Positions 3,725-18,994 of a stretch of DNA of 22,249 nt are shown here, one piece after another. The DNA is from a virus. How positions within the stretch are numbered: the first letter of the stretch is position 1; each line of letters opens with the position of its first letter. The DNA is taken from positions 1-22,249 of the IMG/VR virus record IMGVR_UViG_3300020442_002932, one strand, 5' to 3'. Made by a program: the position numbers and the translations under genes. A model generated the notes under the pieces. It worked only from the letters and a program-made list of their open reading frames with translations. It had not been told where the DNA came from and searched no databases.

Positions 3725-3758
3725 AGAAGGAAATCAATTTTCACAGGAGACAGACGAG

Positions 3759-4166: not shown

Positions 4167-4204
4167 TACAATATAGCAAATAATAGTTTACATTGGAGTT
4201 GTAA

Positions 4205-4498: not shown

Positions 4499-4505
4499 AT
4501 GCCTC

Positions 4506-4533: not shown

Positions 4534-4544
4534 TAATTAACAGT

Positions 4545-4594
4545 TTAAGTTTTAACGGGGTGGTAGTTAAAAACTTAATAGGATATTAACCACC
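4545..4594 (+). promoter_or_regulatory. Candidate H-type RNA pseudoknot in a 5' leader
   Basis: Stem 1 pairs 4545-4556 with 4566-4578 (12 base pairs with one bulged A at 4573). Its 9-base loop contains GGTGGT (4559-4564), which is perfectly complementary to ACCACC (4589-4594), giving stem 2. Connecting loops are 2, 1 and 10 bases, which suits classic H-type geometry. The Shine-Dalgarno GAGG (4602-4605) follows eight bases later. By analogy with the phage T4 gene 32 leader pseudoknot, a protein-bound or translation-regulating element is plausible; this role is inferred. Confidence 0.55.
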
Positions 4595-4611
4595 AGTTTG
4601 TGAGGTATATA

Positions 4612-4842
4612 ATGACTAAACAAGATCGTGTTTTGAACTATCTTCGTCGAGGAAGAACTCTTAGCCAAGATAGTGCTTACAGTATGTTTGAGGTAGGAAA
4701 TCTTCGTGCTACTATTAGCGACATTAAGCCTACTCTAAAGTCTGAAGGATATGAAGTAGTTCGCAGTACAGGACGTAACGGCGAAACCAGATATGGTGCT
4801 TCAAGTAAACGAAAGAGTAGACGTAGAACATGCTCTAAGTAA
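4612..4842 (+). CDS. Small winged-helix/HTH DNA-binding protein with basic tail, 76 aa
   Basis: The ATG at 4612 is six bases after GAGG; a GTG at 4600 overlaps that site and is less likely. The sequence (MTKQDRVLNYLRRGRTLSQ, residues 1-19, then 'LRATISDIKPTLKSEGYEVV' about 31-50) matches the short phage helix-turn-helix type in which a 'QxRVLxxLxxG' helix precedes a recognition helix and a wing (RSTGRNGETRYG). The last dozen residues (SSKRKSRRRTCSK) are strongly basic, suggesting extra nucleic-acid contact. It follows a leader that can fold as a pseudoknot, so it may regulate its own mRNA or a promoter. HTH assignment is good; the target is unknown. Confidence 0.75.
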   Translation: MTKQDRVLNYLRRGRTLSQDSAYSMFEVGNLRATISDIKPTLKSEGYEVVRSTGRNGETRYGASSKRKSRRRTCSK

Positions 4843-4877
4843 TGAGCAATTAGAATAATGGCCCAGTAAAAGCCCAA

Positions 4878-4927
4878 GGGTATATCTAATATATCAAACA
4901 GATATAGATAGTTCGGCTTGCTATCCC
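4878..4927 (+). other. Possible structured RNA element or weak terminator
   Basis: In the gap 4843-4967 two adjacent hairpins can form: TATATCT (4881-4887) with AGATATA (4900-4906), and GATAG (4907-4911) with CTATC (4921-4925). GG (4879-4880) and CC (4926-4927) can close them into a three-way junction. A T-rich stretch (ATTATTTTTATAT) follows, so an inefficient terminator or processing site after the winged-helix gene is possible. I see no coding frame here. Confidence 0.3.
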
Positions 4928-4967
4928 ATTATTTTTATATCTATAGAAATTCATCTACGGTATTTAT

Positions 4968-5156
4968 ATGGAAAAAATACACCCTGCTACATGGATTTTA
5001 TGGGGTTTGCTTATGATTAGCATAGCAACAAATTGGGTTCAATGGTCGCAAATAAAAAGACTTGAAAAAGAGATCGCACCTGTTATAATAAGACAAAACA
5101 TTGAAGTGTTTACTAAACCACCAGAAGGTATCAGATACATTAGGCATGGGTTTTGA
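4968..5156 (+). CDS. Small membrane-anchored protein, 62 aa
   Basis: One membrane segment is visible at about residues 7-23 (ATWILWGLLMISIATNW), followed by a short amphipathic or coiled helix (QWSQIKRLEKEIAPVII) and a polar tail ending RYIRHGF. The layout resembles small inner-membrane phage proteins that place a short helix against the membrane. No Shine-Dalgarno sequence is obvious upstream (CGGTATTTATATG). Its stop overlaps the beginning of the next frame. Function unknown. Confidence 0.55.
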   Translation: MEKIHPATWILWGLLMISIATNWVQWSQIKRLEKEIAPVIIRQNIEVFTKPPEGIRYIRHGF

Positions 5157-5158
5157 AA

Positions 5159-5335
5159 ATGCAACGAAAAAAACTAACTCAAGAACAGAGAAGAATTAAT
5201 CGCCTAAGATTTAGAGGGCGACAAAAAATTGGTCAGATGTTAGCCGATAATCCAAATATGACTTCTTATGAGGCTAAAAAGATTGTAACATCTGAAATAA
5301 AAAAGAAACATAAACTTGGTAAGTTTAGACTATAA
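5159..5335 (+). CDS. Small very basic protein, 58 aa
   Basis: The start is taken as the ATG at 5159, three bases after the upstream stop; an in-frame TTG at 5153 is an alternative. The protein is dominated by Lys and Arg (MQRKKLTQEQRRINRLRFRG, then 'KIGQMLADNPNMTSYEAKKIV' and 'KKKHKLGKFRL'), suggesting nucleic-acid binding. The middle looks like a short helix pair. Its TAA ends at the base before the first base of the tmRNA, so both probably share a transcript. Confidence 0.55.
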   Translation: MQRKKLTQEQRRINRLRFRGRQKIGQMLADNPNMTSYEAKKIVTSEIKKKHKLGKFRL

Positions 5336-5685
5336 GGGGGCGTAAAGGTTTCGACAGGTTTGGAAGATTTATATTTAGCAAGTAGTAGTTGATCTGGAGG
5401 CTACTTTAAAACCAGATTAAAACGCTTAACTGGCGAAACTCAGTTAGCACTCGCCGCTTAGTAGCGGTGACGATCTTAGGAAGCGATGAAGGGAGCGTCC
5501 AAAAGATCGACGTAAAATCCTTCGGCAATCATAATCGCCAACTGATTGTGGTCTGAGTTTTAGTTGGAAGAAACGTATGCTGGTTTGTCCTTTGTCTGCA
5601 TAATGTTTCTATTAACAATGGACTAAACTTGTAGAAGATATAATGAACTAAATACTGGACAGGGGTTCGACTCCCCTCGCCTCCA
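5336..5685 (+). ncRNA. ssrA: Transfer-messenger RNA (tmRNA), one-piece
   Basis: tmRNA frees stalled ribosomes and adds a degradation tag. The 5' GGGGGCG (5336-5342) pairs with CGCCTCC (5678-5684, one G-U) to form the acceptor stem, with A5685 as discriminator; CCA is not encoded. The 5' 'GGTTTCGACAGG' and the T-arm 'AGGGGTTCGACTCCCCT' are diagnostic. Pseudoknot PK1 is visible: AGTAG/CTACT and ATCTGG (5392-5397) with CCAGAT (5412-5417). Eleven bases after it an open frame begins: the predicted tag is TGETQLALAA (5429-5458), or GETQLALAA, followed by tandem stops TAG TAG (5459-5464). The exact resume codon is inferred by spacing as in E. coli. The RNA abuts the upstream stop codon and needs 5' processing if co-transcribed. 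A tmRNA in a phage-like context is uncommon. Confidence 0.95.
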
Positions 5686-5688
5686 CTT

Positions 5689-5970
5689 ATGAAAACTAAA
5701 GCAATTCTATTATCATTATTATTACTTCTAAATGCCGTTGAAATAGTTCGGCATAATGAGGTATTCAGATTTTTAATGGATGGCAGACCGAAGCAGGTAA
5801 CATACTTCCACACTACGTTTTTATTTACACATATTGAAATCGAAGTTATTGAACCTGATATAAGAAAAGATTGTGCCGCTTTTAGATGCATGAATCTATA
5901 TATATTTTGTGAAAACTTTCACATACATCATACATTTCATTGGAGATATATAAAATTTCTTGAAACATAA
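5689..5970 (+). CDS. Hypothetical protein with N-terminal hydrophobic segment, 93 aa
   Basis: The ATG lies three bases after the tmRNA 3' end, with no clear ribosome-binding site, since the upstream bases are tmRNA acceptor stem. The N-terminus (MKTKAILLSLLLLLNAVE) looks like a signal peptide or membrane anchor. The remainder is rich in Phe, His and Cys (RCMNLYIFCENFHIHHTFHW), with two Cys that could be disulfide-bonded outside the cytoplasm. No family recognised. The close fit between tmRNA and the next Shine-Dalgarno supports a real but perhaps weakly translated gene. Confidence 0.5.
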   Translation: MKTKAILLSLLLLLNAVEIVRHNEVFRFLMDGRPKQVTYFHTTFLFTHIEIEVIEPDIRKDCAAFRCMNLYIFCENFHIHHTFHWRYIKFLET

Positions 5971-5997
5971 GGTGTATATTATCATAGAGGTATAACT

Positions 5998-6237
5998 ATG
6001 ATAAAAAAATCTATTCAACATTTAAAAGAAAATAATATGTCTTACTATCAGCACATAGAATTTGCTGGTAAACATGGTTTGAGTTGTATAAAAGCTGGAA
6101 TACTCCTTATTCTTCATGGGTTTATCCCAGCAGTATTTCCAAGAGCAGGTTCTAAACTAGTAAATAAATTGAATAAAAATTTTACAGAGCATAACGAGAT
6201 GCTTAAAAAATGTAAAAAATGCATGAAAGATTTATAA
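5998..6237 (+). CDS. DUF6356-like small membrane protein, 79 aa
   Basis: AGAGG at 5986-5990 precedes the ATG. The sequence has 'QHLKENNMSYYQHIEFA' (about 7-23), then a hydrophobic stretch 'CIKAGILLILHGFIPAVFP' (about 31-49) and 'AGSKLVNKLNKNF'. This 'HLKE...SYxxHxxFA...aG..LxxHxxxPxxF...GS..v..L' pattern is what I recall for DUF6356, a family of small membrane proteins of unknown function that often occurs near polysaccharide or sulfotransferase genes and in phages. The C-terminus (KKCKKCMKDL) has a CxxC. It lies directly before the first sulfotransferase. Confidence 0.65.
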   Translation: MIKKSIQHLKENNMSYYQHIEFAGKHGLSCIKAGILLILHGFIPAVFPRAGSKLVNKLNKNFTEHNEMLKKCKKCMKDL

Positions 6238-6240
6238 ATA

Positions 6241-6807
6241 ATGATCCGATATTATGCTAGTGACACGCATAGATATATTTGGTATGTTGTTCCTAAATGT
6301 GGACGCACAAGTTTATTGTATTGGTTAAAAAAACATAATCTTATTGAGCAAGAAAAAGTGGGTCTTTCAACAGGAGAGCCTCTTTTTGTCAAACATAATG
6401 AATACTTCACATTCTCCTTTTGTAGAAATCCTTATGATAGACTGGTTTCTACATACTTCGATAAAGTTCCGAAACAAGAACTACCTTTTTATAAAAGGTG
6501 GAAAGATAAGGGTTTTGCAGAATTTGCTAATGATATTTGTGATATGCGTACAAAAAAGATGGACGGTCATGTAGTACCTCAAGTGTTTTTAATACCTAAA
6601 AATTTAGATTTTTTAGGCAGATTTGAGACTCTCAATCAAGATATTCAAACTGTAACTAATAAATTATTTAATATAAAATTTGACGATAGACATTACAACA
6701 AAAGCAAACATAAACACTATTCAAAGTATTACGATAAAGCATTGAGAGATAAAGTATACGAAAAATATAAACAAGACTTTGAAAGATTCGGATATGATCC
6801 TGAGTAA
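6241..6807 (+). CDS. Sulfotransferase (Sulfotransfer_2-like), 188 aa
   Basis: This protein would move sulfate from PAPS to a hydroxyl of a sugar or other acceptor. It has the two PAPS-binding signatures of the fold: the 5'-phosphosulfate loop VPKCGRTS (residues 17-24) and the 3'-phosphate motif CRNPYDRLVSTY (61-72). The C-terminus carries 'HKHYSKYYD', also seen in the next gene. At 188 aa it is shorter than many relatives, so it is a minimal catalytic domain. No signal peptide or membrane anchor is seen, so it acts in the cytoplasm. It is the first of five sulfotransferases here and overlaps the next. Acceptor cannot be inferred. Confidence 0.85.
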   Translation: MIRYYASDTHRYIWYVVPKCGRTSLLYWLKKHNLIEQEKVGLSTGEPLFVKHNEYFTFSFCRNPYDRLVSTYFDKVPKQELPFYKRWKDKGFAEFANDICDMRTKKMDGHVVPQVFLIPKNLDFLGRFETLNQDIQTVTNKLFNIKFDDRHYNKSKHKHYSKYYDKALRDKVYEKYKQDFERFGYDPE

Positions 6808-7396
6808 AAAATATTCTGTATTATTTATAGCAATACAAAAAACAGGAACAACCAGTGTGGAAAAAGTATTACAAGAGTATTTATATCCGCATGTTGCGTC
6901 TAGTACAGTTAAAATCAAAAAAAGACCAAACTTTAAGTATAAACATAATTCAGCAGAAATACTTGCTGGTTGTCCAGAAATCAAATCTATTTGGTATGAA
7001 TTATTTAAATTCTCTTTTGTTAGAAATCCTTGGGACTTATGTGTTTCTCATTATTTTTACAGACAGAGGGAGGGACATGAGGAAGCAGTCGGCACTCCTT
7101 TTAGAGAATGGTTGATGAATGATAAAAAACGAGAACCTATTATGTGGCAAGCATCTACCCAATATGACTGCTTAACTGTAAATGGTAAATTAGCAGTGGA
7201 TTTCATAGGTAGATTTGAAAATTTGCAAGCAGATTTTGATAAAATTTGTAAACATATACAAATACCATCTATACAACTAGATAAACACAATACCACCGAG
7301 CATGAACATTATTCAAAATATTATGACCAAGAAACGAAAGAATATGTTTTTAATTTATTTAAAAAAGACATAGACTACTTCAACTATGAATTTTAA
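6794..7396 (+). CDS. Sulfotransferase, 200 aa, tandem relative of the preceding gene
   Basis: The ATG at 6794 is chosen over an upstream TTG at 6779; translation would be coupled to the previous gene, whose stop lies 14 bases inside. PAPS-binding signatures are IQKTGTTS (residues 14-21) and VRNPWDLCVSHY (76-87). 'GRFENLQADFDKI' and the final 'HEHYSKYYDQETKEYVFNLF' parallel the same positions in the upstream gene (GRFETLNQDIQTV, HKHYSKYYDKALRDKVYEKY), so the two probably arose by duplication and diverged. It overlaps the following glycosyltransferase by 11 bases. Likely sulfates a glycan; acceptor unknown. Confidence 0.87.
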   Translation: MILSKKYSVLFIAIQKTGTTSVEKVLQEYLYPHVASSTVKIKKRPNFKYKHNSAEILAGCPEIKSIWYELFKFSFVRNPWDLCVSHYFYRQREGHEEAVGTPFREWLMNDKKREPIMWQASTQYDCLTVNGKLAVDFIGRFENLQADFDKICKHIQIPSIQLDKHNTTEHEHYSKYYDQETKEYVFNLFKKDIDYFNYEF

Positions 7397-8147
7397 TTTT
7401 GTATTCATAATACCTTCTTACAATAATCAAGATTGGTATAAATATAATATCAAATCAATACATAAACAATCTTATAATAATTGGAGAGCTATTTATATTG
7501 ATGATAATTCTACAGACAATACGCTTGAATTAGTTAAGAAATATAATAAAGAATTAAATATAAGTTCAAAATTTACATACATTAAAAATTCAAGAAAATT
7601 AGGCCCAGCAGGATCAAGGTATCAAGGCTATAGTAAGACGCATGATAAAGAAATTTGTTGTCTTTTAGATGGAGATGATTGGCTATATGGAGATAATGTA
7701 TTAGTAACACTTAATGCATATTATAATCGTGGCTATAATTGTACTTATGGTTCGTATATAAACGCAGCACGAAAAAACAATATTATACCCAATAAAGATT
7801 TTGCAGAAAATGTACACAGAGACAAATCTTATAGACAATATTGTAAGGGGCCAAACATTTGTTCTCATTTACGCACTATGAAAAGCTCATTAATAAAAAA
7901 TATTGATATTGATAAGTATTTAAAAATAGATAATGAATGGATACAAGTTTGCACAGATTTAGCTGAAATGTGTTATGTATTAGAGCAGAAGAATTGCTTA
8001 CCCAAATTTATTAATCAGCCATTATATGTATATAATTATTATAATTCTATAAGATATAATACCTCTCATTATTTCATTAAACAGCCAGATAATAAACATA
8101 TGGCAGAATATAGAGAGCGTATACTGGAGAAAATACAAAATGATTAA
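7386..8147 (+). CDS. Family 2 glycosyltransferase (GT-A fold), 253 aa
   Basis: GT2 enzymes transfer a sugar from a nucleotide-sugar donor with inversion. The GT-A signs are clear: IIPSYNN (residues 8-14), DDNSTD (39-44) in the nucleotide-binding region, GPAGSRYQGY (73-82) and the metal-binding DGDDW (95-99). The domain occupies most of the 253 aa, and no membrane segment is visible, so it is a soluble single-domain enzyme. It overlaps both neighbours (a sulfotransferase before, a GT25 after), implying coordinated expression. Donor and acceptor cannot be told. Confidence 0.9.
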   Translation: MNFNFVFIIPSYNNQDWYKYNIKSIHKQSYNNWRAIYIDDNSTDNTLELVKKYNKELNISSKFTYIKNSRKLGPAGSRYQGYSKTHDKEICCLLDGDDWLYGDNVLVTLNAYYNRGYNCTYGSYINAARKNNIIPNKDFAENVHRDKSYRQYCKGPNICSHLRTMKSSLIKNIDIDKYLKIDNEWIQVCTDLAEMCYVLEQKNCLPKFINQPLYVYNYYNSIRYNTSHYFIKQPDNKHMAEYRERILEKIQND

Positions 8148-8874
8148 CAATACAATCGTACTATCTTTACCTCAAAGTATTAAAAGAAGAGAGTTTATGG
8201 AGTTAAAGCTGGATTCAGTTTCAGATACAATTCTAGAATATAAATTTTTCAATGCTTTGGATGGAAACAAAATACCAGAATATGATAACTATGCAAACTA
8301 TTGCTATAAAAATAAGAAGAAGATTTTAGTTGGAGAGCATGGTGCTTATGGATGTTTAATGAGTTACAAAAAATTATTTTCTGAACAATGGCAACCATCA
8401 TTTGTTATTGAAGATGATGTTTACTTTCATAAAAATTATAAAAACATTATAAGTCAAGCATACAAAGAAAATATTTTTGATGAATATGATATAATATACT
8501 TTGGCTATAATAATTATAGACTATCCGATCAACAACTAAGTGCTATTAAAAATAATGAATTTATTATACCAGTATCAAAAGAACGTAAATATATAACTTG
8601 CGGAACATATGCAATCTGGTATTCTACTAAAGCAATATCTTATTTAAATATTATTTTACAAAATATGCAATATGGTGAAATCAAACCGATAGATCATATT
8701 GTATGGAAGTTAACTAATAGATTAAAATCTGGAATTATCAATCCTCCTTTATGCATTAGTGAGGTTCGTGATAGTAATATTAGGCCATCGAGAGATACTG
8801 CTTCGTTTTATAACCAAAGAGGCATGGATTTAAATAATTATATGCATTTAGGTAAATATGAAAAGTTTAGGTAA
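8140..8874 (+). CDS. Family 25 glycosyltransferase (LPS-type), 244 aa
   Basis: GT25 enzymes include lipooligosaccharide galactosyltransferases and collagen glucosyltransferases. The start 'IVLSLPQSIKRREFM' (residues 6-20), 'FNALDGNKIPEYD' (37-49), 'GEHGAYGCLMSYKKLF' (65-80) and the acidic VIEDDVYF (89-96) are the family hallmarks in order. 'YITCGTYAIWYSTKAI' and 'PIDHIVW' further on also match. It begins eight bases inside the previous GT2 gene. It ends five bases before the ligase promoter, so it is the last gene of that transcription block. A related GT25 domain is found in the fusion protein at 10991-12865. Confidence 0.88.
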   Translation: MINNTIVLSLPQSIKRREFMELKLDSVSDTILEYKFFNALDGNKIPEYDNYANYCYKNKKKILVGEHGAYGCLMSYKKLFSEQWQPSFVIEDDVYFHKNYKNIISQAYKENIFDEYDIIYFGYNNYRLSDQQLSAIKNNEFIIPVSKERKYITCGTYAIWYSTKAISYLNIILQNMQYGEIKPIDHIVWKLTNRLKSGIINPPLCISEVRDSNIRPSRDTASFYNQRGMDLNNYMHLGKYEKFR

Positions 8875-8878
8875 AGAC

Positions 8879-8907
8879 TTGACGCTTTGATGTCGATAAT
8901 GTATACT
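8879..8907 (+). promoter_or_regulatory. Sigma70-like promoter with CGATA element (before DNA ligase)
   Basis: TTGACG at 8879-8884, 17-base spacer and TATACT at 8902-8907. CGATAATG (8894-8901) sits directly before the -10, closer to it than at the other promoters. It gives the ligase its own start of transcription inside the glycan region. Confidence 0.7.
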
Positions 8908-8944
8908 ATAGAAGGGAATCAATCACAAGACACAGGAATATATA

Positions 8945-10264
8945 ATGAACAGCACAGAATATGTTATGGCTATGATCGACGAACTGCGTAATAATAGCGG
9001 TACGATTGCCAAGCAAGAAATTATTGCAAAGTATTGTAAAGCAGGTAAAGAGGAGGATAACGGAGATCAACTTCATGCTAGAAATGTGCTGAATTTAGCA
9101 CATAATGACTATCTTATGTATGGTTTAACAAGTAGCCAAGTTAAGAAGCGACCAGATTTATCTTTCGGAGATTGCGAACCGGGATATGGCTTGTGTCAAA
9201 TGTTCAGTGATTTGAATAACAGAAGGTTTACAGGACATGATGCTATTAGAATTGTAAATGCTTATATTAACAAACATCCAGAACAAGAAGAACTTGTCTA
9301 TTGTATTTTAGACAAAGACCTGAAAACTAAGGTTGGTGTAAAACTTATTAATAAAGTTATTCCTGATTTTATTCCAGAGTTCAGCGTTGCTCTTGCAGAA
9401 AAATATGAACCTAAATTAGTGGAGTGGAAAGATGAGTGGTTTGTTTCAAGGAAACTGGATGGTGTTAGATGTCTCGCTATTGTTGATAATTTTGGCAACA
9501 CTACCTTCTATTCCCGCACAGGAAAAGAGTTCCTTACTCTTGGTGTGGTTTCTGATGGGATTAGTGCTTTGGGGATTACTGACGTAGTATTTGATGGTGA
9601 ACTATGCTTAGTTGATGAAGATGGTAATGAAGATTTTCAAGGTATTATGAAGCAACTTCGTAAAAAAGATCATACTATCGAGAATCCTTCTTATAAAATC
9701 TTTGATATGATGACTCAAGATGAATTTAAAGCAAAGAAGAGCGATGAGAATCTCTATGAAAGATATAAGCAGTTATTGTTCACTATGGAGAATAACGAAT
9801 GTCCCTGCTTATCTGTATTAGAAATGGATATAGTAGAAGATGATGAACATTTCCAAGAATGGGTATCTAAAGCAGATGAGAATGGTTGGGAAGGCGTAAT
9901 GTTGCGTAAAAATGTAGTATATAAAGGCAAGCGTAGTAAAGACCTATTGAAAGTAAAGACCTTCCACGATGCTGAATATAAAGTGCTAGACACAGAAATG
10001 GGAATGTTTCCCTTAACAATAGATGGTAAAGAATGCGAAGAAGAAATGCTATCTTGTGTTTACATTAAACATAAAGATCATACCGTAAGAGTGGGGAGTG
10101 GATTTTCTATAGAACAAAGACAAGACTTTTATAAAAACCCTACTAGTATCTTGGGTAAGGTTATAACCGTACAATATTTTGAAGAAACTAAAAATCAAGA
10201 AGGTGGAATTAGTTTAAGATTTCCAACATTTAAAATACTACATGGAGATTCTAGAGTGCTATGA
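8945..10264 (+). CDS. ATP-dependent DNA ligase
   Basis: Seals nicks during phage replication and repair, through a lysyl-AMP intermediate. Nucleotidyltransferase motifs appear in order: motif I RKLDGVR with catalytic Lys170, SRTGKE (190-195), motif III FDGEL (216-220), motif IV WEGVMLRK (315-322), motif V LLKVKTF (334-340). An N-terminal helical region of about 160 residues precedes, as in phage ligases that contact DNA with an extra domain. The last 100 residues fit the OB fold (EGGISLRFPTF near the end). 439 aa is in the usual range for phage ligases. It has its own promoter, and by eye less extreme AT content than the sugar genes around it. Its stop overlaps the next gene by four bases (ATGA). 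Confidence 0.93.
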   Translation: MNSTEYVMAMIDELRNNSGTIAKQEIIAKYCKAGKEEDNGDQLHARNVLNLAHNDYLMYGLTSSQVKKRPDLSFGDCEPGYGLCQMFSDLNNRRFTGHDAIRIVNAYINKHPEQEELVYCILDKDLKTKVGVKLINKVIPDFIPEFSVALAEKYEPKLVEWKDEWFVSRKLDGVRCLAIVDNFGNTTFYSRTGKEFLTLGVVSDGISALGITDVVFDGELCLVDEDGNEDFQGIMKQLRKKDHTIENPSYKIFDMMTQDEFKAKKSDENLYERYKQLLFTMENNECPCLSVLEMDIVEDDEHFQEWVSKADENGWEGVMLRKNVVYKGKRSKDLLKVKTFHDAEYKVLDTEMGMFPLTIDGKECEEEMLSCVYIKHKDHTVRVGSGFSIEQRQDFYKNPTSILGKVITVQYFEETKNQEGGISLRFPTFKILHGDSRVL

Positions 10265-10938
10265 TTAAAGATTTCACTATTTATGGAGAAAGATGTAGCG
10301 GCACAAATTTTTTGTACTCCATATTTACCGGAGATGTTCATCATGCAGGAGTCATAGACCCTTCTGAAGCTAAAAGAAATAAGATAAGCAATATACCTTG
10401 GGTAAATACTTATGGCTGGAAACATTTTTTTGGCTTTCATAATACTGAAATACAAAGACATGGAGATAATACATTATTCTTAGGTATAGTTAGAAATCCT
10501 TATGATTGGATACATTCTTTTTATGGTAATCTCTATCATGTACCTGATGAAAATCGTAAGATGTATAAGTTTTTATTATCAGAATGGTATTCTGTTAAGA
10601 AGCATAATGTAGAGAATTTACACGATAGGGACTTATCAAATACAGATAAAAGATATAAGAATATTTTTGATCTAAGATCAAAGAAACTAAATTATCTATA
10701 TAATACTATGCCTACGTTAGCTAAAAATTATTATTTTTTAAAGTATGAAGATTTATGTCAAAATCCACATAAAATATTTGATGAAATATCTAAAAAATTC
10801 AATTTAAATTTTGAAAATGTTTCTAAAATTAAAGTTAAAAAACCTAATCCACATAAATTAGATAACAGAATGAAGCAAATTATAGATGATAATATTGATT
10901 GGGATATGGAAAATTCTGTAGGTTACGAAAAAAGGTAG
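10261..10938 (+). CDS. Sulfotransferase, 225 aa
   Basis: The start overlaps the ligase stop as ATGA, so ligase and sulfotransferase are translationally coupled despite different roles. The 5'-phosphosulfate loop is GERCSGTNFL (residues 9-18), a form with Arg-Cys in place of the common Lys-Thr. The 3'-phosphate motif is VRNPYDWIHSFY (77-88). 'YYFLKYEDLCQNPHKIFDEI' (about 162-181) is the usual C-terminal PAPS-site segment of the fold. No membrane segment is visible. It resembles the phage/bacterial sulfotransferases of uncertain acceptor, and is not closely like the tandem pair upstream. Confidence 0.85.
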   Translation: MIKDFTIYGERCSGTNFLYSIFTGDVHHAGVIDPSEAKRNKISNIPWVNTYGWKHFFGFHNTEIQRHGDNTLFLGIVRNPYDWIHSFYGNLYHVPDENRKMYKFLLSEWYSVKKHNVENLHDRDLSNTDKRYKNIFDLRSKKLNYLYNTMPTLAKNYYFLKYEDLCQNPHKIFDEISKKFNLNFENVSKIKVKKPNPHKLDNRMKQIIDDNIDWDMENSVGYEKR

Positions 10939-10990
10939 CTGGTGTAATTTATGGTATCAGGCTTAATAAGGAATCGGACGATACAAAATT

Positions 10991-12865
10991 ATGGCAATTT
11001 CTATAGAGGAATTTTATCGCACTGCAATAGTAGACTCAGCATTTGATGAAAAATATTATCTAGAACATAATCCAGAAGCGAGAGATTTTTATCTTTCATA
11101 CTGCCAAAGTAATGGCATAGATGATAAACATAGATTATTTTTTCATAGTTTTTTAAAACAAAAAGGGGAGGCGATTAGTAATTATAGCACAGAAGCTAAT
11201 ATTTTAATCCCGCCAGTAAAAACCACCCCTGAATATCAGCTTACATTATCAGAATTTTATAAACATCATAAAGTAGATAAAATTTTTGATGAAGAATTTT
11301 ATGAAAATCAATGTCCAGATGTTATAAATTTTTATGAACCACATGCTACTGAAATAGGTATTAGTAAAAAAGAAAAATATTATTACCATTATATAATGCA
11401 TGGCAAGGCTATGGGTTTTCTGAAATCAGATAACCCCGTAGATAAGTCGGTATCAGTAATAATAGCCGTTAAAAATAGAACAGAGAATTTATTTAAAATT
11501 TTAAATTCTTGGCATGATGTAGATTTAATTGATGAAATTATTGTCGTAGACTATAGTTCAGACGAACCTGTGATAATTACAGATTATAACAAGGTAAAAG
11601 TGATAAGAGTAGAAAATGAAAAATATTTTAATTTAGGCAAGGCTTACAATTTAGCATTTGACTTTTCTAAGAGTGATATTGTAATTAAAGTTGATGCAGA
11701 TTATCAGCTTTTAGATAGTAATTGGCTTGAACTATATTTAAGAAATGGTTTATGTCACAAATATTTCATAAGATCAGATTATACTTTTTCTAGATATACT
11801 TCTGGGTTCTTTGTTGTACATAAAGAAGATTATAAATATTTTAGAGAAGACTTAAATGGATATGGTTATGACGAGATAGATTTGTATACGAGAATTAAAA
11901 AATCTAATCCTGATATCACTGAAGTAATCTGGTTTGATATAGACAATTCTATATATCATATTCCTCATACTCACGAATCTAGAACAACAAACTATATCAC
12001 ACAAAATACTGGATCATCAGAAATTAATAATAGATTTATGTGCGATAGGTATTCCCCTATAAAACCTAGAAGAAATCCCTATCTTATAAAAGATGATAAT
12101 ACTATCACATATCATAAACTAAAAATTGACAGGATGTTCTGTATAAATTTAGATGATAGGGTGGATAGATGGGAATTATTATCTAAACATAATTTAGAAA
12201 GATTTTCTGCTATAGATACCAGAAAAAATACTTTAAGACACAAGGAATATGGCTTAGAGATCAATCCTTGCAATATATCTTCTGATGTTTACTTTAAAAA
12301 GTCTAATGGTGCTGTAGGAGTATATTTAAGCCATTATTTATTATGGCAAAAGATAGTTAATGAAAATATTAAAAATGCATTAATTTTAGAAGATGATGTA
12401 GCAGAACAAACCGTAGAAGATATATTAAATTCTAATTTAATCATACGTGATAATGATGATATTATTAATTTATCAAAAAGAATACGATGGGAAAATAGTA
12501 GATTATTATTTGATGGCGCAGAGTCTTATATTATAAGTTATAATGGAGCAAAAAAATTACTTCAAGCTACAGCAAATAATTATTTACTTAACAATATAAA
12601 GCCTCAAAATTATGTACCTATACGACATAAAGAGTTTATTGATTGGAATTTTAAAAACTCAATTACCTGCCCTGTGGATAAATTTATGGGATATTGTTGT
12701 GAAAAAGAAGCTGACTCAAGCATTAGATTAAAATATTATATATATCCTATCGTTAACATGAATGATGGAGTAAGTGAAAAATCTGATATAAATACAGGAA
12801 ATACTTTTGTTTGGGATATGAATGAATCTGAACTTATGAATATATACAATCAAGAAAATAAATAA
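10991..12865 (+). CDS. Two-headed glycosyltransferase: two N-terminal repeats, GT2 domain, GT25 domain, 624 aa
   Basis: Residues about 5-58 and 86-142 are a diverged repeat with 'FDE(K/E)(Y/F)Y' near its start, 'P(E/D)xxxFY' and a terminal '(F)HSFLKQKGEA' / 'YHYIMHGKAMGF'; such modules are known at the N-termini of bacterial glycosyltransferases. A GT2 domain follows: VSVIIAVKNR (154-163), VVDYSSDE (185-192), the DAD metal motif (235-237) and a C-terminal part 'RSDYTFSRYTSGFFVVHKED' with 'GYGYDEIDLYTRI', like the galactosyltransferase/chondroitin-polymerase type. Residues from about 378 form a GT25 domain: KIDRMFCINLDDRVDRW, GAVGVYLSHYLLW (440-452) and LILEDDV (464-470). The two active sites could add two sugars in sequence. 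No frameshift is seen. Confidence 0.85.
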   Translation: MAISIEEFYRTAIVDSAFDEKYYLEHNPEARDFYLSYCQSNGIDDKHRLFFHSFLKQKGEAISNYSTEANILIPPVKTTPEYQLTLSEFYKHHKVDKIFDEEFYENQCPDVINFYEPHATEIGISKKEKYYYHYIMHGKAMGFLKSDNPVDKSVSVIIAVKNRTENLFKILNSWHDVDLIDEIIVVDYSSDEPVIITDYNKVKVIRVENEKYFNLGKAYNLAFDFSKSDIVIKVDADYQLLDSNWLELYLRNGLCHKYFIRSDYTFSRYTSGFFVVHKEDYKYFREDLNGYGYDEIDLYTRIKKSNPDITEVIWFDIDNSIYHIPHTHESRTTNYITQNTGSSEINNRFMCDRYSPIKPRRNPYLIKDDNTITYHKLKIDRMFCINLDDRVDRWELLSKHNLERFSAIDTRKNTLRHKEYGLEINPCNISSDVYFKKSNGAVGVYLSHYLLWQKIVNENIKNALILEDDVAEQTVEDILNSNLIIRDNDDIINLSKRIRWENSRLLFDGAESYIISYNGAKKLLQATANNYLLNNIKPQNYVPIRHKEFIDWNFKNSITCPVDKFMGYCCEKEADSSIRLKYYIYPIVNMNDGVSEKSDINTGNTFVWDMNESELMNIYNQENK

Positions 12866-12866
12866 T

Positions 12867-13673
12867 ATGAGTAAAGCAAAATGTAATTTATTTCTAATGT
12901 CTCCACCAAAAACAGGTAGTAGTTCGTTATTTTATCTATTAAAGCAACATCCATTTATATCTGGCTGTTCTTTAAAAGAACCACAGTTTTTTTCCAATAA
13001 CTTTACTAAAGGACTTGATTATTATAACGACTTATTCCCTGTTGATGACTGCCTCTATCGTATGGAAGCATCTACTACATATTTTAGTGATGAGTGGGCA
13101 GTACCTAAAATGCAAAAAACTTGTGACAAAAATATAAAAATAATTTGTGTGCTTAGAAATCCAGTAGAAAGATTTATATCACAATATAAACATTTTCGTG
13201 CTATTAACATTATTCTCAACAATAAAGAACTGCACGAAGAATTTCAACAATCTATAAACTGGGTAGATACATGGAGAAGAAATATTCAAAATTGGAATGG
13301 CTGTCCAAGGATATACACAAACATATTTGAAGCACATGAAAGCAAGAAAAACTTATATAATTATTTGAATAATGGAAACTATGCAAAAAGTATAAAAAGA
13401 ATATGGCATCATTTCGATAAAGATAATGTATTATTTATTAAATATGATGATTTTAAAGCAGACTATAATAAAACTATAAGTTTAATATGTAAATTCTTGA
13501 ATATAGAGCAGTTAATTGTAGATAATGTATCTTATAATCGTACTGCAAATTGGGAAAAATTTGCTAGTGTGGAAGATGAAATAACAGATACTATGTTAAA
13601 TGAACTAAAAATATATTATATGGAATCTAATAATGAGTTGAAAAGTATGTTAGGAGATCATTTCCTATGGTAA
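12867..13673 (+). CDS. Sulfotransferase of the Sulfotransfer_1/heparan-sulfate type, 268 aa
   Basis: Begins immediately after the glycosyltransferase stop (one base between them). The 5'-phosphosulfate loop is PPKTGSSSL (residues 13-21), with KEPQFF (37-42) next, and the 3'-phosphate motif VLRNPVERFISQY (95-107). 'LKEPQFFS...GLDYYNDLF...EASTTYF' is the arrangement found in heparan-sulfate N-/3-O-sulfotransferase-like enzymes and their bacterial homologues, so a polysaccharide acceptor is the best guess. It is the most canonical of the five. It overlaps the next gene by seven bases. The substrate itself is not determined. Confidence 0.9.
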   Translation: MSKAKCNLFLMSPPKTGSSSLFYLLKQHPFISGCSLKEPQFFSNNFTKGLDYYNDLFPVDDCLYRMEASTTYFSDEWAVPKMQKTCDKNIKIICVLRNPVERFISQYKHFRAINIILNNKELHEEFQQSINWVDTWRRNIQNWNGCPRIYTNIFEAHESKKNLYNYLNNGNYAKSIKRIWHHFDKDNVLFIKYDDFKADYNKTISLICKFLNIEQLIVDNVSYNRTANWEKFASVEDEITDTMLNELKIYYMESNNELKSMLGDHFLW

Positions 13674-14491
13674 ATAGTATAGGAGCATATCTATGTAACA
13701 CTTATCAAAATGAAGCGTGGGCTTCATTAGCTAACAATAATATTGAAAAGTATTTTAATTTTCATGATATAAAACTATCTGTTGTAAATTTAGATAATCC
13801 TTATGTTAAAATTTTGTCTCAGTATCCCAATATTTGTCCGACAATAAGAAAGATGCTTAGATATTATTCTTTTCTAGAATCTGATAATGAATATGGAATT
13901 TTTATTGATCTAGACACAGTAATTATCAATCCCTTAAAAAATGTAGCAGACTGTATTGATAGTGGCACAAATCTTTTGAAAACTTGGAAATTTTCTAAAG
14001 AAAAAAGTGCAAACCAAGATTATTTGTTAAGGAAATCTGTTTTTGTAAATAAATTTTTTAATTTTGAAATAGAGTTTAAGTGTAGTACGGCTTTTAGTAT
14101 TTTAAACAAACAATTCTGTTCTGACTACATTAAATTCAATGAAGATACTCTTGGAATAAATATAACTTCTGAACAATCAATTAAACAATTATCAAAACTC
14201 GTATCTAATAAAAATTATGTTGTTAATGACGAATCAATATTAGAAATATTTCTTTCTCAGCCAATGCACTTCAAAAAACACAAAAAACCAAATAATTATT
14301 GGTGGTTTGGATTATGGAAAAAATATAATATTATAGACCCTATGCTGAAAAATAAAATTTGTTACAGTAATTTTGAGACAAACCTAGACTTATTGGAATT
14401 ATTAAATAATGATTATATATTTTGGCATTTATCGAATTTAAATTATAAAAAACATCTTTTAAAATTTACAGAAATGTTTGCATTACTATGA
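13667..14491 (+). CDS. Glycosyltransferase with DXD motif (GT8/GT32-like), 274 aa
   Basis: Overlaps the sulfotransferase genes on both sides (7 and 4 bases). 'RKMLRYYSFLESDNEYGIFIDLDTVIINPL' spans residues 61-90 and contains the DLD metal motif at 81-83 within the 'fiDlDtvi' context typical of retaining GT-A enzymes that read donor sugar nucleotides. Further on, 'NDESILEIFLSQP' and 'FWHLSNLNYKKH' fit the rest of such a fold. The exact CAZy family cannot be fixed by eye. Its position between two sulfotransferases supports a role in building the sulfated product. Confidence 0.75.
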   Translation: MVNSIGAYLCNTYQNEAWASLANNNIEKYFNFHDIKLSVVNLDNPYVKILSQYPNICPTIRKMLRYYSFLESDNEYGIFIDLDTVIINPLKNVADCIDSGTNLLKTWKFSKEKSANQDYLLRKSVFVNKFFNFEIEFKCSTAFSILNKQFCSDYIKFNEDTLGINITSEQSIKQLSKLVSNKNYVVNDESILEIFLSQPMHFKKHKKPNNYWWFGLWKKYNIIDPMLKNKICYSNFETNLDLLELLNNDYIFWHLSNLNYKKHLLKFTEMFALL

Positions 14492-15336
14492 AAACAATTT
14501 CCATATTAGCAAGTGCTAGAACAGGATCGACTTTTTTATCTAGACATTTTAAATCGTTACAAGGCTATTGCTATAGTGCTGGAGAAATTTTTAATGCCTA
14601 TTTACCAAAGCAAATAAAAATTATCCATGATATTTTTTATCAAAACAATATACCTTTGTCAACAGAATATATGAATTTTTTACTGAAAAGCAAACCAGTA
14701 TTACTCAATGTTAAACAAAACCAAACAAGGAAACTTTATAACTATAAAAACACAAACCCATATTGCATAGAAATGTTTTTTGATATTCAGAAACAATTAA
14801 ATAATTTACATTACAGATACTTTATAAATAAAAATGTACTTAATGAATACTTCGATCATTCGTGGATTTGTAAAATTGTTGAAGCGTCTGATGTTATTAT
14901 TATTAATTATAGAAAATCAATACTAGACTCATATATTAGTTTGAAAAAAGCTAAAAATATTGGACAATGGATGCTGACATATGATAAAGATTATAATCCT
15001 AAATACGATGAATTAATTACTTGGAATAAAGAAGAGTATATGGATTTTGTGAAGGAATATAAAGAAAATTATACTATGTTTGCTAATTGCACATTAGATT
15101 ACAAAAAGCCATACCATATTATTAATTATGAAGAACTTTGTAGTTTTGATAGTCTGTCTTTTATTGAAAAAACAATGGGGAGTGGTTACGCATTAGAAAA
15201 ACCAAATATTAAAAAACAATCTCGTACTTTAAATAGAGTTGATAATTTCTGTAATAAAAATACATTTGAAAAAGATATGTTAGATATAGATGAATTAGAC
15301 AAAAATTTTAGCATAGAAACGCTAAAACTAAATTAA
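14488..15336 (+). CDS. Sulfotransferase of Stf0/NodH-like type, 282 aa
   Basis: Coupled by ATGA overlap to the previous glycosyltransferase. The N-terminal 'ISILASARTGSTFLSRH' (phosphosulfate loop at residues 8-15) is the hallmark of the Stf0/NodH-like sulfotransferase group, distinct from the 'PKTG' type. The 3'-phosphate motif is YRKSILDSYISL (141-152), and 'YHIINYEELC' follows at about 206-215. Stf0 enzymes sulfate trehalose and NodH sulfates Nod-factor glycans, so a glycan acceptor is likely here. It is the last gene before the next promoter and ends this block. Confidence 0.85.
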   Translation: MKTISILASARTGSTFLSRHFKSLQGYCYSAGEIFNAYLPKQIKIIHDIFYQNNIPLSTEYMNFLLKSKPVLLNVKQNQTRKLYNYKNTNPYCIEMFFDIQKQLNNLHYRYFINKNVLNEYFDHSWICKIVEASDVIIINYRKSILDSYISLKKAKNIGQWMLTYDKDYNPKYDELITWNKEEYMDFVKEYKENYTMFANCTLDYKKPYHIINYEELCSFDSLSFIEKTMGSGYALEKPNIKKQSRTLNRVDNFCNKNTFEKDMLDIDELDKNFSIETLKLN

Positions 15337-15346
15337 AGAAAGGCAC

Positions 15347-15375
15347 TTGACAAGTCGATATCTATAGTATAGAAT
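15347..15375 (+). promoter_or_regulatory. Sigma70-like promoter with CGATA element (before the HhH gene)
   Basis: TTGACA at 15347-15352, CGATAT at 15356-15361, and a -10 as TAGAAT at 15370-15375 (17-base spacer) or TATAGA at 15368-15373 (15-base spacer). It starts ten bases after the upstream stop. The next gene has GGAG at 15403-15406 and ATG at 15413. Confidence 0.65.
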
Positions 15376-15412
15376 TGTTAGTATCACAGGATTTAACTTT
15401 TTGGAGACTACT

Positions 15413-16111
15413 ATGGAAACTACTACAGAAAAACCAGTAAAGCAAACCACTTACTGTCGGAGTCGGGCTGATGACTTTTTTAAAACATTTCCTAGAGAAA
15501 AAATTCAAGCATATAAGGAGTACTGGGAGAGTGTACGACCACAGAATCATGGCGATATTTTTAGGCGTTATCTGTTTGCTTATTGCTCTGTTCATACAAG
15601 TTGGCAAGGGAATTGCCGTGGTTACGAGGCCATTAAGCAATACGACGAATGGATCGACGATAAAGAAAAACTCCTAGACAAACTAAAAAATTCTGGAGTT
15701 GGATTGTATAACAATAGAACAAAGTATATCTGGGACTTTGCGACACAGTTCTGGAATAATCCAAAAGATTTTTACCTTACAACAAAAAAGTATCATGTCA
15801 AAAAGCGTGATGAGATTGTTAATCGCATTACTGGTCTTGGTATGGCAAAAGTTTCATTTGCATTAGAAATGATTCATCCAAATTTTGCTAGGGTTTTGTG
15901 TGGAGATGTTCATCAACTTAGATTATATGGTATGCAAGACCTTACATACAAAAGCAAGACAGGATTTGAAAAATACAAAAGAATGGAACAACATTGGAGT
16001 GTAAATTGCGGCAAAATTAAAGTACCATCTTATATTGCTCGATGTGTATACTGGGATAAACTGCAAGATAAAACAGATAGTAGGTATTGGAGTTATGTTT
16101 TAGAGGCTTAA
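15413..16111 (+). CDS. Helix-hairpin-helix DNA-glycosylase-like protein, 232 aa
   Basis: Start at ATG 15413; an in-frame TTG at 15401 overlaps the ribosome-binding site. The C-terminal half has 'ITGLGMAKVSFAL' (residues 139-151), matching the LPGVGxxTA hairpin of HhH-GPD base-excision glycosylases, and 'VLCGDVHQLRLYG' (161-173), where Asp165 would be the conserved catalytic Asp of the 'VDxH' position. The lysine used by bifunctional glycosylases is not at its usual place (Lys146 is one residue off), so a monofunctional enzyme or a binding-only protein is possible. Expected role is removal of damaged or non-canonical bases. It has its own promoter, like the UVDE and ligase genes. Confidence 0.7.
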   Translation: METTTEKPVKQTTYCRSRADDFFKTFPREKIQAYKEYWESVRPQNHGDIFRRYLFAYCSVHTSWQGNCRGYEAIKQYDEWIDDKEKLLDKLKNSGVGLYNNRTKYIWDFATQFWNNPKDFYLTTKKYHVKKRDEIVNRITGLGMAKVSFALEMIHPNFARVLCGDVHQLRLYGMQDLTYKSKTGFEKYKRMEQHWSVNCGKIKVPSYIARCVYWDKLQDKTDSRYWSYVLEA

Positions 16112-16135
16112 TTTTTTAAGAAAGGAGTTTACAAA

Positions 16136-16261
16136 ATGTCAAACGGAAAGGGAGATGTTAATAGACCTAAAACTGTAGACAATAAAACATGGGAAAAAAA
16201 CTACGAACGTATTTTTAAAAAGTCTAAACCTAAATCCGATAAGAAGAAGAAGAATGAATAA
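16136..16261 (+). CDS. Small conserved phage protein of the 'MSNGKGD' type, 41 aa
   Basis: A strong AAGGAG (16121-16126) precedes the ATG. The product begins MSNGKGDVNRPKTVDNKTWE and ends in a run of Lys (KPKSDKKKKNE). From memory, tiny proteins with the form 'MS(N)GKGDxxRP...xxNxxRIF' recur in many tailed phages without known function; here 'NYERIF' at residues 22-27 fits. It overlaps the following glycosyltransferase gene by eight bases. Confidence 0.75.
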   Translation: MSNGKGDVNRPKTVDNKTWEKNYERIFKKSKPKSDKKKKNE

Positions 16262-17084
16262 ATATATAGTTATGTCTGCTATATGCAAAGACGAAAACTT
16301 GTATATTAAAGAATGGTTAGACTATCATAGTGCTATTGGTGTCGAGTATTTTATACTGTATGACAATAATAGTGAAGTATCTTTAAAAAAAACTTTACGA
16401 TCTTATAATAATGTTCGCGTTATAGATTGGAAAGACTCCCAAGATTTTACACAGATAAGGGCGCAAAGAGATTGTATTGAAAAATATAAAAATGTTAGAT
16501 GGATAGGTTTTTTAGATATAGATGAATTTGTGGTTTTATTAAATGACTCTATAGATATAAAAGACTATTTGCAAAAATACGAAGCATATGATGGTGTGGG
16601 TTTATATTGGTTAGCTTTTGGTTCTAATCAGCACCTTACTAAACAACCTGACACAATATATTCCTATACTCAATCATCTCCAAATTTATTAAATTTCAAC
16701 AAGCATATCAAATGCTTTATTAATCCTTCAACATATAATTTTAAAAAAACACACTGGACATCCCATTGGTTTCCAACTAAAAATAATATAGTTGATGTAG
16801 ATTGTAATTCTATTTCTGAATATTGGGATTCTGCGTATAATTTTGCAAAATATATGGCAGACGAAAGCATAAAACCAATTACAGATAAAACTATGAGAAT
16901 CAATCACTACTACACTAGAAGTTTAGAAGATTTTAAACATAAAATGAAAAGAGGTGGTGGAGTAAAAACAAATAGGGTGTATAGTATGAAGAAGTACAAG
17001 CGTATTAATAAAGAAAATATTTTTAATGACGATATTATTAAAACTTATAATAAGATAAAGGATAAAAGATGCAACATGGATTGA
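16254..17084 (+). CDS. Glycosyltransferase of the GT92/Glyco_tranf_2_4 type, 276 aa
   Basis: The order of motifs is characteristic: 'SAICKDENLYIKEWLDYHSAIGVE' (CKDE at residues 11-14), 'FILYDNNSE' (33-41), then 'WIGFLDIDEFVVL' (83-95) with the DIDEF metal motif, and 'INHYYTRSLEDFKHKMKRG' near the C-terminus. These define the GT92 and related families, whose members add galactose and other sugars to glycans. It starts inside the small MSNGKGD gene and overlaps the next small gene by 16 bases. It is the last glycan gene of the main cluster and shares a transcript with the HhH glycosylase-like gene. Confidence 0.87.
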   Translation: MNKYIVMSAICKDENLYIKEWLDYHSAIGVEYFILYDNNSEVSLKKTLRSYNNVRVIDWKDSQDFTQIRAQRDCIEKYKNVRWIGFLDIDEFVVLLNDSIDIKDYLQKYEAYDGVGLYWLAFGSNQHLTKQPDTIYSYTQSSPNLLNFNKHIKCFINPSTYNFKKTHWTSHWFPTKNNIVDVDCNSISEYWDSAYNFAKYMADESIKPITDKTMRINHYYTRSLEDFKHKMKRGGGVKTNRVYSMKKYKRINKENIFNDDIIKTYNKIKDKRCNMD

Positions 17085-17615: not shown

Positions 17616-18119
17616 ATGGATATCAAAAATAAAACCCTACCTGTTGTATTATTATTTATCCTCATTACTATTCTAGTTATAAGATCAAAGTCTAATGGTT
17701 CTGATAACGCCACACCTAATATAGACAACAAACCAAATCCCAAAGTAATTATACCTAAGCCAGAAATTCCAAAATTAGATACTAATATTGTATATGATGA
17801 TTTAGAAAAAGCTATTGCTTTAGGCAAAGTACACCACATGAATGTTGTGTTGGTATTCGGTGCTGATTGGTGTCCGTACTGCAAAGAATTAAAAAAAGAT
17901 AGTAAAAACATAAAAGAATTGGAAAAATATATTGTATGTTTTCTTGATACAGATAATCGTGAGGTTAATCAGTCTGCTATAAATAAATTTAAGCCTAGAA
18001 GTTTGCCAACATCCTTGTTGCTAGATACTACTAATAATAGAGAAGTATCTAGAAAAGTTGGATATAGAAACAAGGATTATAAAAAATGGTTAAACTCTTT
18101 AGGGGAATCTTCACAGTAA
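17616..18119 (+). CDS. Membrane-anchored thioredoxin-like protein, 167 aa
   Basis: An N-terminal membrane segment (LPVVLLFILITILVI, residues 8-22) is followed by a Pro-rich linker (about 33-55) and a thioredoxin domain. The active site is FGADWCPYCKEL, with Cys86 and Cys89, and the loop with cis-Pro is seen in 'RSLPTSLLL'. The domain would face the periplasm and reduce or exchange disulfides there. The CPYC centre and 'VVLVFGADWCPYC' beginning resemble thioredoxin-like/DsbD-type soluble domains. The next two genes encode likely exported or Cys-bearing proteins, which could be its clients. It overlaps the next gene by 34 bases. Confidence 0.9.
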   Translation: MDIKNKTLPVVLLFILITILVIRSKSNGSDNATPNIDNKPNPKVIIPKPEIPKLDTNIVYDDLEKAIALGKVHHMNVVLVFGADWCPYCKELKKDSKNIKELEKYIVCFLDTDNREVNQSAINKFKPRSLPTSLLLDTTNNREVSRKVGYRNKDYKKWLNSLGESSQ

Positions 18120-18994
18120 TACTTGTATTAAGTTTTACACATCTTTATGGACAAGAAGCACCAGATTTAGGTAAAATTTTAGAAAATGTTTTACAAAAGC
18201 ATTACGGAAATACCTCTCTAGACACTTTAGAAAGCATGAACGCTAGATCAGTGCCTATCGAGTTAGAAGCATTTGAATTAGAGGATAAAAGGAATTTAGA
18301 TAAAAATTGCATTTTTAATAATGTTATGTCTTATACTACTAAGCCTTTTAGTGGTAAATGGGGTAGACCAACAGATGTTCACGAAACTGTACATGGTATT
18401 AATAATGCATTAAGTAATATTAAAAGTGGATATAGAGCATTCTATGTAGGTGAAGGTAAAGCTATTTGGATTCAAGAACCTAATGTAACAATGGATGATA
18501 TTGTGCCTTTAATACCAGAAGAACTAAGAGGTTATAGATTTCCCTTATATTTTTTAGAACAAAAAAAACACTGGAATGATGTAGCATTATATCCCCTAGA
18601 AGAGTGGTGCGCATACATAGCTGGCGCTGAATGCGCTGTAGACGATTATAGTAGATATAATATTGATCCCACAAAATATAAGTCACATCCATATGATAGT
18701 GCTACTGCTATTAGAACAGATGAAGTTTCAGGATCATTAGAGTTTGCAATATACTGTACTGCATTAGCTATGGCTGTAAGCAGAAAAGATAAAGAATATT
18801 GGAAGAACCATACTCAATTTAAAAGAGCTATGAAATTCTTTTTAGTAAAAGCAGAGAAGATATTTTTTGAAGGTAAAGACATATTTAAATCTGAAAAACA
18901 AGATAAATTATTAAATGCACTACAAAATTCTTCAGAAGGTGTAAATATAAGAAATTTTTTACGCACATCTTTTGATGGAGTTTTTCTAGAATGA
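18086..18994 (+). CDS. Secreted HExxH metalloprotease-like protein, 302 aa
   Basis: The ATG lies inside the end of the thioredoxin gene. A classic signal peptide is visible (MVKLFRGIFTVILVLSFTHL, then YGQ at about 21-23). The zinc-binding motif HETVH is at residues 99-103 ('DVHETVHGINNAL'), and a downstream helix 'LEEWCAYIAGAE' (171-182) offers the Glu expected as third ligand in gluzincin-like peptidases. 'SGSLEFAIYCTALAMAVS' is a further conserved-looking helix. I do not recognise a named family, and proteolytic activity is inferred from the motif only. Exported position and neighbours suggest action on the host envelope or outside the cell. Confidence 0.65.
   Translation: MVKLFRGIFTVILVLSFTHLYGQEAPDLGKILENVLQKHYGNTSLDTLESMNARSVPIELEAFELEDKRNLDKNCIFNNVMSYTTKPFSGKWGRPTDVHETVHGINNALSNIKSGYRAFYVGEGKAIWIQEPNVTMDDIVPLIPEELRGYRFPLYFLEQKKHWNDVALYPLEEWCAYIAGAECAVDDYSRYNIDPTKYKSHPYDSATAIRTDEVSGSLEFAIYCTALAMAVSRKDKEYWKNHTQFKRAMKFFLVKAEKIFFEGKDIFKSEKQDKLLNALQNSSEGVNIRNFLRTSFDGVFLE

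Follow-up and report, generated by a model that had tools for sequence, protein, structure and literature searches.

Gene content and organisation of the cluster

The stretch of viral DNA analysed here (the window) is the complete IMG/VR record IMGVR_UViG_3300020442_002932 (22,249 nt), and this work concerns a cluster at positions 6241-17084 in which five predicted sulfotransferase genes (ST1-ST5) are interleaved with five glycosyltransferase (GT) genes. The cluster had been proposed in a first-pass annotation made from the letters alone and proved to be real, with every open reading frame (ORF) named there present in its place. The genes had been described as mostly overlapping by 1-14 bases; overlaps of 4-14 nt were indeed found at 6 of the 11 junctions, while the other junctions are gaps of 1-142 nt. 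A DNA ligase gene (8945-10264) and an 8-oxoguanine-DNA-glycosylase-like gene (OGG, 15401-16111), both absent from that annotation, sit inside the cluster and are the fixed points that organise it, with the cargo lying in islands A, B and C. The features of the cluster are as follows.

5336-5686, plus strand: transfer-messenger RNA (tmRNA) gene (ARAGORN), conserved core element bordering cargo island A on the left
6241-6807, plus strand: ST1, short Sulfotransfer_2-type predicted sulfotransferase, island A (Pfam PF03567, E 1.9e-15)
6794-7396, plus strand: ST2, short Sulfotransfer_2-type predicted sulfotransferase, island A (Pfam PF03567, E 2.4e-13; phrog_3347, 2.6e-20)
7386-8147, plus strand: GT2 glycosyltransferase, island A (PF00535, 4.9e-23)
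8140-8874, plus strand: GT25 glycosyltransferase, island A (PF01755, 5.3e-15)
8945-10264, plus strand: ATP-dependent DNA ligase, core gene between islands A and B (PF01068, 2.1e-18; phrog_114)
10261-10938, plus strand: ST3, GERxSGTN-type predicted sulfotransferase, island B (structural model and PAP/PAPS sulfotransferase matches; adjoins the ligase in many relatives)
10991-12865, plus strand: GT2-GT25 fusion glycosyltransferase, island B (PF00535, 9.1e-10; PF01755, 7e-15)
12867-13673, plus strand: ST4, predicted heparan-sulfate 3-O-/N-sulfotransferase-like enzyme, island B (Sulfotransfer_1, PF00685, E 1.1e-24)
13667-14491, plus strand: GTx, putative DXD glycosyltransferase, island B (FIDLDTVI motif only)
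14488-15336, plus strand: ST5, Stf0/NodH-like predicted sulfotransferase, island B (NodH profile match 0.0033; 4gox Z 13.0, Stf0 Z 10.3)
15347-15375, plus strand: sigma70-like conserved promoter closing island B, TTGACAAGTCGATATCTATAGTATAGAAT, unique in the window
15401-16111, plus strand: OGG (Ogg-HhH), core gene between islands B and C (PF22175, 1.2e-8)
16254-17084, plus strand: GT92 glycosyltransferase, island C (PF01697, 5.8e-25)

Four of the five GT genes were assigned to the families first proposed for them by Pfam (GT2 at 7386, GT25 at 8140, GT2 plus GT25 at 10991 and GT92 at 16254), and the GT2 gene additionally matches the GtrB-like phrog_841. The proposed DXD-type enzyme, GTx, carries the motif only; it had no match in Pfam, NCBIfam or PDB, and no homologue was found in the viral contigs or, on weak evidence from a search with no positive control, in 199 Pirellulaceae genomes. 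GTx is therefore listed as a plausible DXD glycosyltransferase.

Cargo genes vary between conserved core genes

A search with the window ligase yielded 80 related viral contigs, and gene order was compared among relatives, as the first-pass annotation had proposed. The core order recurs and the genes between vary. In the closer relatives, the order is g0 - ThyX - UvdE - Zn-ribbon - tmRNA - [A] - ligase - [B] - OGG - [C] - thioredoxin - u18086 - CAP - ... - DUF1559, where ligase, OGG, UvdE and ThyX are mostly 70-91% identical (ligase 88-91% in the nearest relatives, OGG 77-90% in close ones) and the contents of A, B and C change. Even where the ligase is 88-91% identical, relatives differ at the corresponding position, with another set of genes, a smaller number or no genes at all. 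The nearest relative (L086, a 195-kb contig) has ST1 (53% identity; 48% in another contig, L007), GT2, GT25, GT2-GT25, ST4, ST5 and GT92, and lacks ST2, ST3 and GTx at the matching places. A second relative, L004, shares ST2 (82% identity), GT2 and GT25 with the window and differs in the genes of island B.

Such variation around a near-identical core points to exchangeable cargo genes without a fixed biosynthetic order. The stepwise synthesis of a single glycan, suggested at first for the whole cluster, was not supported by this comparison, and we rejected a fixed single-glycan operon on the same grounds. In our reading, tmRNA, DNA ligase, OGG and thioredoxin mark fixed slots, seen both empty and filled, between which sulfotransferase and GT genes come, go and are swapped.

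Several further observations were made in the relatives. In L086, the ligase frame is in pieces at 6760-8046 and ST5 is also split, perhaps through sequencing errors. A gene of about 385 aa without a Pfam match recurs in island A (L005 7949-9106, with a similar size in L009, L012, L016 and L017). Between g0 and ThyX, relatives carry a further gene of about 215-220 aa that is absent from the window (L013 3461, L005 2790-3452, G019 183414-184058); its G019 copy has a start resembling the sulfotransferase cofactor loop (FPKTAGTTT) and a weak profile match (3e-6), and may be another sulfotransferase type.

A constant promoter bounds the ligase-OGG slot

The interval between ligase and OGG was compared at 45 loci with distinct ligase ends. 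It was empty at 15 (38-70 nt), contained at least one sulfotransferase at 23 and held other cargo at 7; the 5.1 kb of the window are among the longest. OGG is preceded by a sigma70-like promoter with the consensus TTGACAAGnCGATAnnnnTAGTRTAnAAT, which 41 of 46 distinct junctions contain at the set tolerance; three further near-matches were recognised by eye. The promoter at 15347-15375 is its single occurrence in the window, with 0 expected by chance. Where the slot is empty, TAAAGAA(A/T/C) is read at the ligase stop and the promoter lies 10-11 nt further on. Similarly, in the window 10 nt separate the promoter from the terminal TAAAGAAA of the last cargo gene, ST5, while other filled slots are more variable in both tail and distance. 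At the left edge of the slot, the end of the ligase gene and the start of ST3 share 4 nt. Lying between the coding end of the ligase and a constant promoter, the cargo is placed for co-transcription with the ligase; slot contents could be exchanged through homologous recombination in the conserved sequences on either side, which would explain this layout. No terminator-like stem-loop was reported at the boundary (15336-15401).

Five predicted sulfotransferases of four sequence types

At least three sequence types had been proposed for the five sulfotransferases, and four were seen. All five proteins have a loop resembling the 5'-phosphosulfate-binding (5'-PSB) motif (PKCGRTS, QKTGTTS, ERCSGTN, PKTGSSS and ARTGSTF) and a 3'-PSB-like Arg...Ser stretch, in line with the signatures for binding 3'-phosphoadenosine-5'-phosphosulfate (PAPS) first noted in these genes, and both motifs are kept in relatives. 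ST4 matches heparan sulfate 3-O- and N-sulfotransferases in the PDB, down to 4e-13; using phmmer, 3-OST-3 (4e-13) aligned with the KEPQFF glutamate in register, and NDST1 matched at 1.7e-12. The Glu of the KEP.FF stretch has a catalytic role in heparan sulfate 3-O- and N-sulfotransferases.

The structure prediction recommended in the first-pass annotation was run on ST3 and ST5, and both models match sulfotransferases. For ST3, whose Pfam match is below threshold (0.0064), a model built from an alignment of 18 relatives (predicted local distance difference test, pLDDT, 91) had PAPS- or PAP-bound sulfotransferases as best Foldseek matches (E 2.2e-4) and aligned to SULT1C3 over 174 residues (Z 12.8, root-mean-square deviation (rmsd) 3.1). 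ST5 has no Pfam match, and Foldseek alone was ambiguous for its model (pLDDT 81) since adenylate kinases ranked first; it was thus judged by a second aligner and a family profile, and its assignment is somewhat less certain. The profile, from nine relatives, finds the lipopolysaccharide (LPS) sulfotransferase NodH (9vki; E 0.0033), and the model aligns to the sulfotransferase domain 4gox (Z 13.0, rmsd 4.3, 213 residues) and to Stf0 (1tex; Z 10.3, rmsd 4.1, 196 residues), the latter tied with other sulfotransferases. Judged by sequence and modelled structure, ST1-ST5 share the sulfotransferase fold and belong to the PAPS-dependent superfamily, with predicted activity. The ST3 type (GERxSGTN) adjoins the ligase in many viral contigs and had a weak match in 1 of 199 Pirellulaceae genomes; the family looks largely virus-restricted within what was searched, and its rarity in putative hosts argues against recent host capture.

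Selection on the cargo

Ratios of nonsynonymous to synonymous divergence (dN/dS) were estimated by Nei-Gojobori comparisons. Between the window and L004, dN/dS was about 0.23 for ST2 and 0.07 for the ligase; between the window and L086, it was about 0.40 for ST4 and 0.06 for OGG; and for the pair L010/L011, it was about 0.7 for the ST2-type gene and 0.07 for the ligase. The cargo is under purifying selection that is weaker than on the core. Synonymous divergence differed among neighbouring genes of one pair (ST2 0.40, GT2 1.5, ligase 0.67, OGG 1.7, several of these values being near saturation), which agrees with mosaic exchange. The cargo is also lower in GC content than the core (24-30% versus 30-37%).

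Phage lineage, sulfotransferase load and host

No hallmark structural gene lies in the window itself. Several syntenic contigs of 96-224 kb encode a large terminase subunit of about 678 aa, and most long relatives have a terminase; among the matches listed, this subunit is at most about 30% identical to that of any of 50,697 catalogued phages. The window belongs to a lineage of large tailed phages (Caudoviricetes), as its presumed phage origin required, and a cellular origin was rejected because the same core order occurs in terminase-bearing contigs.

Three long relatives (160-195 kb) carry, by profile, about 7 (G003), 8 (G019) and 6 (G011) sulfotransferase genes. For comparison, a Sulfotransfer_2 gene was found in 79 of 199 Pirellulaceae genomes, mostly 1-4 and at most 8. 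Outside the islands, G003 (89454-90056) and G019 (27356-27988) both have a divergent sulfotransferase gene immediately before the terminase region, on its upstream side; in G003 it is two genes upstream of the terminase with a weak Pfam match (0.00027), and in G019 it occupies the matching place by synteny. L085, a viral contig of 120 kb that lacks the present core genes, has four Sulfotransfer_2-like genes within 9 kb (3704-12641), and sulfotransferase arrays may therefore also occur in other phage lineages.

A planctomycete-like host had been suggested, and the last core gene of the window speaks for it.

21997-22249, plus strand: DUF1559-type prepilin-like core gene, cut by the window end, host marker (73-97% in relatives)

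A single-sequence query with this gene found nothing among cellular genomes. With an alignment as query, the nearest cellular relatives were nearly all from Planctomycetota, many from Pirellulaceae, mostly at 29-39% identity. Based on this one family, the hosts are probably marine, Pirellulaceae-like planctomycetes.

A proposed sulfated coat and its alternatives

Whereas 59 of 60 Pirellulaceae have an adenosine-5'-phosphosulfate (APS) kinase, none was found in 20 phage records, so the host is the expected source of PAPS; self-sufficient synthesis by the phage was rejected on the same count. Genes for sugar metabolism accompany the sulfotransferases in the relatives. G003 has a sugar module with NeuB, SIS, GT11 and two PF03407 transferases, and a 26-kb block of G011 contains four epimerase/dehydratase genes, two DegT aminotransferases, GT2, GT15, PhyH and five sulfotransferases; in L016, GlmS lies beside the tmRNA gene. 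The window has one candidate of this kind, a possible source of nucleotide sugars.

20843-21886, plus strand: RmlB-like dTDP-glucose 4,6-dehydratase (PF16363, 1.2e-52; TIGR01181, 252 bits, below the cut-off of 365)

By a Kyte-Doolittle hydropathy count, no transmembrane segment was predicted in the cluster proteins, and no flippase-type polytopic protein was found in the window, G003, G019 or G011. Since membrane-anchored and flippase genes are missing, cytosolic acceptors, as in virion decoration, are favoured over an autonomous remodelling of the host surface. We put the chance at about one half that the hypervariable islands serve to glycosylate acceptors in the cytosol and to sulfate them with host PAPS, virion proteins being the likeliest acceptors; substrate, product and acceptor are what we infer from the enzymes. 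The enzymes would act in the host cytosol on host PAPS and nucleotide sugars, and the acceptor would be glycosylated, then sulfated. The result would be a coat of negatively charged glycans, different from one related phage to another, which could alter adsorption to the host surface or protect particles against degradation or host defences. With a change of cargo, the coat would change too, like a serotype. This larger picture, an exchangeable "serotype" system in which slots with a constant promoter load differing sulfotransferase and GT sets and each phage builds its own sulfated coat on host PAPS, is tentative and falls a little short of even chances.

Several points weigh against virion decoration. 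No virion protein is known to be modified in this way, and GTx is a putative glycosyltransferase. The hydropathy count gives a rough estimate, and the phage records, all linear contigs, may be incomplete. The host link is one gene family at 30-39% identity. Finally, the same GTs and sulfotransferases could act on host glycans before the host exports them.

This last point is the main rival explanation: the enzymes would modify planctomycete exopolysaccharide or LPS precursors in the cytosol, the host would export them, and rival phages would be excluded. Phage glycosyltransferases that convert O-antigen are known, and the phrog_841 match of the GT2 gene is of the GtrB-like kind. Rapid cargo turnover fits an arms race over receptors, and sulfated polysaccharides are produced by marine bacteria related to planctomycetes (PMC7356697). 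However, neither the window nor the three long relatives encode a flippase-like polytopic or membrane-anchored cluster protein, and 6-8 sulfotransferases per genome would seem more than exclusion needs; we consider this explanation unlikely, if the best of the alternatives. Another explanation is that non-glycan targets are sulfated (nucleotides, small molecules, or tyrosines of virion or host proteins), for counter-defence or signalling, with the GTs as separate cargo. The ST3 model also resembles cytosolic SULT enzymes, tyrosylprotein sulfotransferases and StaL, and in many relatives ST3 stands alone beside the ligase without a GT. We find this improbable, because ST4 is closest to glycan (heparan) sulfotransferases and ST5 apparently to the Stf0/NodH glycan enzymes, most rich islands mix sulfotransferases with GTs, and PADLOC gave no convincing match to defence genes. 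That the cargo consists of ordinary phage morons, recently captured host genes of little function drifting in a tolerant region, would suit its A+T-richness and fast change but is very improbable, as the reading frames are uninterrupted, every cargo gene measured has a dN/dS under 1, 23 of the 45 slots contain a sulfotransferase and the ST3 family is rare in putative hosts.

Relation to known systems

Single sulfotransferases have been reported in OM43 phage contigs and in Synechococcus phage S-SRM01, where the function of phage sulfotransferases was described as unclear (PMC10580990), and in glacier viruses (PMC8290583). In the phage collection, ST2 matched three records, the best being AAY80_051 of Stenotrophomonas phage DLP6 (28.8% identity), and ST3 and ST4 had no match. 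The window resembles these phages, and those of PHROG 3347, in having PAPS-type genes in a tailed phage. The DLP6 gene, however, is a single gene among replication genes with no GT annotated nearby, whereas here five genes of four types are accompanied by five GT genes, and the slots that hold them differ from relative to relative. The closest cellular parallel is a putative sulfated-glycosaminoglycan cluster of Pontiella sulfatireligans, a marine bacterium of the Planctomycetes-Verrucomicrobia-Chlamydiae (PVC) group, which likewise combines GTs with a sulfotransferase but is cellular, has one sulfotransferase and serves an exported polymer; the viral cluster has no export genes (PMC7356697).

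In its layout, the cluster is similar to the hyperplastic regions and promoter-early stem-loop (PeSL) cassettes of T4-type phages, with variable cargo between core genes and a conserved promoter at the boundary. PeSLs are said to be mobile regulatory cassettes, and the cargo of such regions is reportedly bounded by a promoter, as attributed to Arbiol in 2010 and Comeau in 2014. The present slot belongs to another phage lineage and differs in that it has the promoter but no stem-loop terminator was found at 15336-15401. Mycobacteriophages also encode glycosyltransferases, which are reportedly thought to modify virion proteins (Freeman, 2023); here, virion proteins are the acceptor we propose, and we know of no sulfation in the mycobacteriophage system. 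Gtr-type O-antigen conversion would be expected to bring a GtrA flippase and a membrane Gtr transferase, unlike the cluster proteins with no predicted transmembrane segment. Phage cargo regions and phage sulfotransferases are thus each already known; no sulfation-centred cargo slot was found in the literature searched.

A lineage with 6-8 sulfotransferases per genome and slots that are empty or full makes the role of phage sulfotransferases testable, and because related phages differ mainly by cargo, they lend themselves to comparisons of coat chemistry, adsorption and host range. If the proposal is true, sulfated glycans would be added to the known products of phages, and these particles would be, to our knowledge, the first of any bacteriophage to be decorated with them. 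The arrangement would also give a recognisable signature for planctomycete phages, few of which are known.

Other features of the window and its relatives

Downstream of the cluster, positions 17616-19404 encode a series of proteins that are probably secreted or anchored to the membrane; the series is kept in relatives. It includes a thioredoxin-like protein with an N-terminal anchor, a CAP-like protein and a 302-aa protein with a signal-like start and an HETVH motif, without a convincing family match. A minus-strand ORF of 120 aa (5529-5891) overlaps the tmRNA gene and is probably no gene. The tmRNA gene was also found in 13 of 14 relatives scanned, and it recurs as a conserved core element in the window and in L002, L004, L005, L009, L011, L012, L016, L034, L038, L065, L086 and L213. 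Two types of tag peptide were seen, GETQLALAA-like in the window, L034, L038, L065 and L213, and ADTSVLALAA in L002, L004, L086 and others.

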